The position numbers and the translations under genes were made by a program. A stretch of 64,000 nt of DNA, from the NCBI RefSeq assembly GCF_020382885.2, contig NC_058497.1, positions 23,490,330-23,554,329 on the forward strand. The letters run 5' to 3'. Positions 46,410-48,563 of the stretch are shown in pieces. Source of the stretch: Scatophagus argus. Taxonomy: Eukaryota; Chordata; Actinopteri; Scatophagidae. The notes beneath the pieces are model-generated. The model saw nothing but the letters and a program-made list of their open reading frames with translations, made no database searches and was not told where the DNA came from. The stretch's first letter is position 1. Each line of letters begins with the position of its first letter.

Positions 46410-48563
46410 ATGGCGGCATACGGTGCTGAACGGTGGTTGGATGCCTTACCAAACCATGGCATTTTCAAAAAAATACGACAGAACCTGAGTCTGGATTCCA
46501 GCGCAAATGAAAGGGGGGCCGCTAAAAACCTCACCTTTTGTTTGGGTGCGGACTTCTTCGTGTGGGACGACGCAGACCGCGTGTTTTACACGACCAATTT
46601 GCGGCAGTTAAACTCGGAAGAGAGTAGCGGGAACTATCAAACACTGCTGTGTATTAACCCTCCTCTCTTCGAAGTGTGCCAGGTGTTGCTAAGTCCAACG
46701 CAGCACCACGTCGCTCTTATCGGCCAGCGGGGTGTCTCTGTGCTGGAGCTTCCTCTGCGGTGGGGCAAGAGGTCCGAATTCGAGGGTGGAAAGAGCGAAA
46801 TCAACTGCAAGACCATCCCGGTGGCGGAGCGCTTCTTCACCAGCTCGCCGTCGGTGAATCTGCGGCAGGCTGCTTGGTACCCCAGCGAGGCCGACGAGCC
46901 CCACCTGGTGCTGCTCACATCCGACAACACAATTAGATTCTATGGTTTGAAGTCGCCCCAGACATTGGCCAAAGTCCTGCCAGTGTCGCAGTCGGAAGAT
47001 GACAGCAGCGTCCATCCTCCGGCCCGTTCCTACGCAGCATCTCTTGGAGAGATAGCGGTGGCGTTTGACTTCGGGCCCGTTACGTCGCCCCCTCGGCAGC
47101 TGACGGCACGGTGCTCCAAAGAACAGCTGGTCTACCCTCTGTACATCCTCTACGAAAATGGGGAGACCTATCTGAGCTATACAAGCCAAGCAAACGGTCT
47201 GAGCATAAGTAAACCCGTTGGACCCCTGCCGATGTATCCTGCAGCAGAAGATAACTACGGCTACGATGCTTGCGCCATTCTGTGCCTGCCGTGTGTTCCC
47301 GGTATCCTGGTCATCGCCACAGAAACTGGCACGCTGTATCACTGTGTGGTGTTGGAGTCTGAGGAAGAGGAGGAGGCGGGGGCAGTGGAAAAGTGGATCC
47401 GAGGCTCAGAGGTGGTGCCGGCTCTCTACGTGTTTGAGTGTGTCGAGCTAGAGCTCACCCTCAAAGTAGCCACAGGAGAGGATGAGGAGCCTCAAGAGTT
47501 TGATTTCACCTGCCCGATCAGACTGCACAGGGACCCTCTGTGCCAGCACAGGTATCACTGCACCCACGAAGCAGGAGTACACAGTGTGGGGCTAATCTGG
47601 GTCAACAAGCTGCAGAAGTTCCTCCAGTCAAATGAGGAGGATAAGGACAGTCTCCAGGAGCTGGCTGCTGAGAAGCGATGTATTGTAGAGCACATTCTTT
47701 GTACCAGACCGCTACCGACCAGTCAGTCGGCTCCGGTCCGTGGCTTTTTGATTTTGTCTGACCTTTCCTTGGGCGCCACCATGATCTGCATCACCAGCAC
47801 CTATGAAAGCATTCTGTTGCCCTTGCTAAGCTCCATTCGCCCCCCCTCCCCTCCCCTGCTTTGTTCCAGTCCGGGTCCAGGCTCTGGTAGCTCCCCTCTA
47901 CGCGGGCTGGCTGACAACTCCTTCGAGCAGCACATCCGGAACATCTTGGCCCGAAGCTCCACCAATCCTCTTGTGCTTAAGGCTGGGGACAAGGACACAT
48001 CACCACCCCCTTCGGAGTGTCTGCAGCTCCTCAGCAGGGCCACACAGGTCTTCAGCGAGGAGTACATTCTCAAGCAGGACTTGGCCCGTGAAGAGATGCA
48101 GAGGAGGGTGAAACTCCTGACAGGTCAGAAGAACAAGCAGCTGGAGGAGCTGGCTCTGTGCAAGGAGGAGAGGATGAGTCTGACAGAGGCAGCCGAGAGG
48201 TTGGCTGATAAGTACGAAGATGCAAAGTATCGTCAGGAGACCATTATGAACAGGGTCAAAAGAGTACTGGGCAGCCTGCAAAGCCAACTGCCTATACTGT
48301 CAAACAGTGAAAAGGAAATGAAGAAGGAGCTGCAAACCATCAGCGATCAACTGAAGCACCTGGACAACTGCATCAAACAGGTGAACATGAAGATGGAGTA
48401 CCAGAAGACACAAGTGGACAAGGAAGCGCCTGCAGCCAGGACAACAGTGTCACTCAATGCCCAACAGAAGAAGGTTGTTCAGGATGTCCTCAGACAACAG
48501 GGACAGCAAATTGGTGACATGATGAAACAAATCAAAGACATCAAAAATCATATCAGTTTCTAG
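46410..48563 (+). CDS. nup88: Nucleoporin 88, complete single-exon gene
   Basis: Cytoplasmic-face nuclear-pore protein that anchors the NUP214/NUP62 complex and CRM1 (family knowledge). One uninterrupted frame of 718 codons encodes 717 residues (human 741) with no stop, frameshift or splice site needed. The N-terminal two thirds match the NUP88 beta-propeller: [78 protein letters not shown]. The C-terminal ~180 residues are coiled coil from LLSRATQVF to the end IKNHISF. The start MAAYGAERW at 46410 mirrors the human MAAAEG start; upstream in-frame sequence has only TTG. Conserved NUP88 genes I know of have many introns, so this intronless copy is probably a retrogene. It looks fully coding and under constraint. 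Confidence 0.95.

Follow-up and report, generated by a model that had tools for sequence, protein, structure and literature searches.

How does a nucleoporin gene that has about 17 exons and 16 introns in human come to stand as one uninterrupted reading frame, head-to-head with a proteasome gene that has kept its introns? The question is raised by the nup88 locus of Scatophagus argus, which lies in a 64,000-nucleotide stretch of contig NC_058497.1 (positions 23,490,330 to 23,554,329 of the forward strand; hereafter the window). The initial annotation of the window had read this gene as a probable functional retrogene, relocated from its ancestral neighbourhood and, if no other copy remained, a replacement of the original. 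Here we analyse the frame, its protein, its copy number in the assembly and its surroundings. The features of the locus are collected in Table 1.

Table 1. Features of the nup88-psmd8 locus, in window coordinates
Feature	Position	Strand	Remarks
nup88 coding sequence	46410..48563	+	ATG at 46410, TAG ending at 48563; single exon, 717 aa + stop; Pfam Nup88, PDB chains
possible polyadenylation signal ATTAAA	48638..48643	+	consensus only; 75 bases past nup88 stop
A run, n=8	48902..48909	+	only run of at least 7 A within 48564-49200
psmd8	43660..46297	-	seven coding exons, 265 aa
psmd8 exons 1-4	46297-46193, 45580-45508, 45389-45287, 45195-45030	-	
psmd8 exons 5-7	44732-44632, 44236-44125, 43797-43660	-	
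candidate shared bidirectional promoter	46298..46409	.	112 bp between psmd8 and nup88 start codons
CpG-rich stretch	45700..47199	.	observed/expected 0.81-1.26, 300-base bins

A full-length NUP88 in a single reading frame

The nup88 frame comprises 718 codons including the stop, with no internal stop, and its 2,151 bases before the terminal codon are free of stops and frameshifts. Across 500 first-order Markov sequences simulated on the ORF, no stop-free stretch exceeded 317 codons, and 30 simulated versions of the entire window gave at most 220; the observed length far exceeds what a chance origin would give. The frame shows codon structure, with a GC3 of 0.66, and its start codon is preceded by A at -3 and followed by G at +4.

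The encoded protein matched the Pfam Nup88 family (PF10168) over profile positions 2-702 of 702 (E 1.3e-299), scoring 995.5 bits against the curated cut-off of 24.4, which identifies it as a full-length NUP88. The best PDB chain was a NUP88 of 741 aa (E 3.7e-286), aligned to query residues 7-717. This chain is human NUP88, since D434, R509 and E634 stand at the positions published for the human protein in passages of PMC6307818. The same passages assign human R509 to exon 11 and E634 to exon 14 (PMC6307818). In the window, the codons aligned to these two residues stand at 47868 and 48237, 369 nt apart and in one frame, the human spacing being 125 codons. The coding sequence thus lacks introns of its orthologue, as is expected of a retrogene. 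The full-length intronless frame of 718 codons described in the initial annotation was borne out by the open reading frame itself, by the coverage of the Pfam profile and by the contiguity of the exon 11 and exon 14 codons.

Divergence of the NUP88 protein

The window protein was identical to human NUP88 at 436 of 709 aligned positions (61.5%) and to the 728-residue PDB chain Nup88A, which we take to be the Xenopus protein, at 415 of 702; human and Xenopus NUP88 shared 474 of 721. The corresponding Poisson distances were 0.486 (window-human), 0.526 (window-Xenopus) and 0.419 (human-Xenopus), and the window protein lies outside the human-Xenopus pair. The distance ratio, near 1.2, fits divergences about 430 and 350 million years ago, and therefore no relaxed phase is visible. 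As far as the protein sequences tell, the divergence of NUP88 looks about clock-like and the constraint continuous. All three proteins agree at 364 of 700 three-way sites, and the changes unique to the window protein number 104 against 51 and 68, the window count taking in the longer shared branch. The disease-linked human residues D434 and E634 are conserved, as D411 and E610 of the window protein. Human R509 is replaced by serine, and this residue is not conserved in zebrafish nup88 either, according to passages of PMC6307818.

The only NUP88 found in the assembly

A second, intron-containing nup88, which the initial annotation had suggested looking for, was sought in the window's own assembly (570,666,677 bases, 48 contigs). 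A six-frame protein search of the whole genome yielded six candidates, and all six were scored; the sole one to match at E up to 0.001 was the window nup88 itself, on contig C5, with 100% identity over residues 1-717. The Pfam Nup88 profile, run against the whole genome at E up to 10, likewise gave one candidate and one match, the window nup88. As positive controls, the same genome search recovered seven of seven psmd8 exons (weakest E 9.0e-6), and the rabaptin profile gave seven matches on contig C14, the shortest of 46 residues, plus a weak one on contig C16. The C-terminal domain of rpain was also found, in one exon. Since the controls were recovered exon by exon, a moderately diverged, intron-bearing nup88 should have been seen, and neither the protein nor the profile search found one in the 570.7-Mb assembly. 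Within this assembly, no intron-containing parent is detectable, as the term orphan retrogene implies.

A retrogene whose parent is still present, but missing from the assembled contigs or diverged past detection, would give the same result, and the genome search scores only the leading candidates of an initial pass. However, the contigs are about 23 Mb long, the protein and profile searches agree on one place, psmd8 and, in the profile search, rabaptin gave exon-sized matches, and zebrafish is described in passages of PMC6307818 as having one nup88 (720 aa, 63% identical to human). We therefore consider a hidden parent quite improbable. Equally, the window gene might be a recent, non-functional retrocopy that has yet to decay. 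The searches found no NUP88 in the genome besides this copy, its identity to human is near that of the zebrafish protein (passages of PMC6307818), and its frame is unbroken throughout, so that this reading is hardly credible.

Separation of nup88 from its probable former neighbours

In human 17p13, NUP88, RPAIN and RABEP1 are, as we take it, neighbours, with RPAIN presumably the head-to-head partner of NUP88. In S. argus, rpain was identified above cut-off on contig C16 near 4.373 Mb, between a PCI-domain gene, which we read as psmd11, and a CDK5-activator gene; next to it, another three stretches resemble RPA_interact_N or RPA_interact_M, each at a score short of the curated cut-off. Rabaptin lies on contig C14 near 20.365 Mb. 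With window, human and Xenopus NUP88 as tblastn queries, no NUP88 remnant above chance was detected in the 40 kb round rpain (best E 1.1), the 40 kb round rabaptin (best E 0.56) or the 20 kb round the weak C16 rabaptin match (best E 0.81), three 40-kb Markov controls having given best E values of 0.77, 0.32 and 0.039. On the assumed human linkage, the place of nup88 on C5 beside psmd8, apart from both rpain and rabaptin, is a new genomic location such as a retrogene would occupy. The gene has probably moved, in support of the relocation that the initial annotation had claimed.

If the three genes were once linked, their presence on three contigs means that ordinary rearrangement has also operated, and because of this, relocation alone is no proof of retroposition. 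Both former partners now adjoin 26S proteasome genes, nup88 beside psmd8 and rpain beside the psmd11-like gene (L004, 4704-8739, and L005, 600-1703, both on the minus strand), which is probably a coincidence.

The initial annotation had also described the surroundings as an otherwise 19q13-type neighbourhood. This holds for the Sprouty-domain gene, psmd8 and the EHD gene, but not for the APP-family, LDLa and trypsin sequences at 8.6-20.5 kb. The latter stretch (8581-20450) carries an APP-family C-terminus together with LDLa and trypsin exons, is joined to the 19q13-like block, and is presumably aplp2-st14-like, corresponding to human 11q24. Within the 19q13-like block, a GLTSCR1 match was weak and below cut-off.

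An inverted 263-bp repeat flanks the psmd8-nup88 pair (40068-40328 and 50739-51001, 99.2% identical) and probably represents a recent transposable element family; its left copy adjoins Tc1-like transposase fragments (HTH_Tnp_Tc3_2, 40353-40511). Rfam gave a single match across the window, to the tRNA family at 38804-38875 and above the gathering score, which could belong to a tRNA gene or to a SINE.

Search for traces of retroposition

Neither a target-site duplication nor a poly(A) tail was found at nup88. When 46298-46409 was compared with 48564-49300, the longest common word had a length of 8, which is typical of 200 controls. No poly(A) tail was present in 48564-49200, where the run of eight A is too short to be a retained tail. 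Since old copies lose both marks, nup88 may still be a retrogene, and its RNA-mediated insertion is a step that we infer.

A direct repeat whose two 20-nt copies agree at 18 positions (46180-46199 and 49028-49047) was rejected as a target-site duplication, as one copy lies on the psmd8 exon 1 donor and psmd8 exon 1 would then fall inside the insert. A repeat of this quality was reached in 1 of 40 Markov controls. Further downstream of nup88, an inverted repeat at 49123-49187 has 30-bp arms that are 97% complementary, with 5 bases between them; it had no Rfam match at the gathering threshold and is perhaps a small hairpin transposon.

The missing hallmarks would also suit an in-place, mRNA-mediated loss, in which nup88 had already come to lie beside psmd8 by rearrangement and recombination with its cDNA removed all introns. 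The dispersal of rpain, rabaptin and nup88 over three contigs points the same way, since any former linkage must have been broken by rearrangement. Yet this account needs two events, and the adjoining psmd8 has kept six of six introns. Moreover, the complete removal of about 16 introns, by the human count, through cDNA recombination is rarer than retroposition. Taken together, we regard in-place loss as unlikely.

The head-to-head interval between psmd8 and nup88

The psmd8 gene has GT-AG boundaries at all six introns, and its protein matches PDB PSMD8/RPN12 with an E value of 1.3e-149. The interval between the two start codons contains 8 CpG at a G+C content of 0.43. The CpG-rich stretch covers this interval and reaches on one side through psmd8 exon 1 into intron 1 and on the other ~790 bases into the nup88 frame; the G+C content of the interval region is 0.42-0.47, making it CpG-rich but not G+C-rich. 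Bidirectional pairs are recognized by head-to-head starts within 1 kb of each other in a CpG-rich setting, and psmd8 and nup88 show this arrangement with a CpG observed/expected ratio of 1.14-1.26. The layout is as expected of a captured bidirectional promoter, and nup88 is likely to owe any expression to capture of the psmd8 promoter. The motif AAGATGGCG, presumably YY1-like, occurs at 46407 and overlaps the nup88 start. The ARE pattern, which we take to be the stress-response element of proteasome genes, was absent from both strands of 45900-46450.

Along nup88, the CpG observed/expected ratio falls to 0.14 at 48300-48599, and CpG by codon position drops likewise. This gradient is no proof of promoter capture, because 38 of the 213 bins of the window reach 0.8 and a similar CpG fall occurs in a stretch that we read as dhx34 (DEAD match 25.6 bits against a cut-off of 26). 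The same controls weaken it as an argument about age.

nup88 as a probable orphan retrogene

We consider it probable that nup88 is an orphan retrogene, that is, a retrocopy that came to lie beside psmd8 and is expressed from the psmd8 promoter, the original intron-containing gene then having been lost. The retrogene reading is supported because the adjoining psmd8 keeps six introns while nup88 has none. The replacement reading of the initial annotation likewise gains support from the single, intronless nup88 found genome-wide by searches that recovered their controls, although retroposition itself is deduced. In such a course of events, spliced NUP88 mRNA would have been reverse-transcribed and the cDNA inserted directly upstream of psmd8, facing away from it, where the existing CpG-rich psmd8 promoter, working both ways, would have transcribed it. 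The retrocopy would have supplied a complete NUP88, beta-propeller and coiled-coil included, to the cytoplasmic face of the nuclear pore; loss of the intron-containing original would have followed. Zebrafish mutant for nup88 do not survive the larval stage, death coming at 9 days or later (passages of PMC6307818), and each step of the replacement must therefore have been viable.

The introns may instead have been lost long ago, in an event common to all fish. The zebrafish nonsense allele sa2206 lowers nup88 mRNA by about 90%, which in the authors' reading suggests nonsense-mediated decay (passages of PMC6307818). Should this decay need exon junctions, the zebrafish gene would carry introns, and the event would postdate the divergence of zebrafish. 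On these passages, the mRNA decay hints, as a lead only, that the intronless nup88 is confined to some fish.

The closest precedent is amphioxus SYCP1 (AmphiSYCP1), a retrogene replacement (PMC5803294). There too, a normally multi-exon gene has a single coding exon in a new neighbourhood and its parent is lost, and its transcription start lies beside that of its neighbour CHIC, with which a common bidirectional promoter was proposed (PMC5803294). Unlike nup88, a nucleoporin known here from sequence, SYCP1 is a meiotic gene that has expression data and gained a multi-exon 5' UTR (PMC5803294), for whose introns the interval upstream of nup88 would leave little room. The 25 human 'orphan' retrogenes (Ciomborowska et al. 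2013, cited in PMC8793726) are likewise functioning retrocopies with a lost parent, but they belong to another lineage, and nup88 is not named in the PMC8793726 passages. Among fish, intronless rhodopsin and hatching enzyme genes of teleosts have been attributed to retroduplication or retrocopy; for rhodopsin, however, intron-containing and intron-less teleost genes are both on record, whereas nup88 has no detectable intron-containing copy.

A zebrafish survey counted 440 intact genes among 652 retrocopies (passages of PMC3091775). Since it compared copies with multi-exon parents, that screen would pass over orphan retrogenes. The main texts of PMC8207432, PMC3155783 and PMC3091775, as far as available, make no mention of nup88, and no report of an intronless nup88 was found in the literature on the gene, covered mostly as titles and abstract openings. 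Fish genome annotations may well already list nup88 as a single-exon gene. Searches for relatives in prokaryote and viral contig collections gave 51 and 11 pattern matches, respectively, none confirmed, as expected for a vertebrate gene.

Implications

The S. argus nup88 adds to a known kind of retrogene replacement, and its interest lies in the gene concerned and in its promoter partner. Tentatively, and with more doubt than confidence, we suggest that throughout a fish clade a retrocopy under the psmd8 promoter has taken the place of an essential nucleoporin gene, that nup88 and psmd8 are co-regulated from the 112-bp interval, and that a 2.15-kb intronless housekeeping gene persists despite HUSH-type surveillance. 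HUSH, which is known from human cells, targets long intronless transcripts, and the A content of L1 ORF2 is 41% (passages of PMC8770142). The sense strand of nup88 contains 25% A, and this low content may be part of its escape from surveillance of that type. It is rare for an essential gene present in one copy to give way to its own cDNA, and such a case allows one to ask what its introns were doing. The nup88-psmd8 pair would let one test, in a natural setting, whether housekeeping retrocopies commonly survive by capturing a head-to-head promoter, and nup88 itself for what length of time genes lacking introns escape transcription-dependent silencing.
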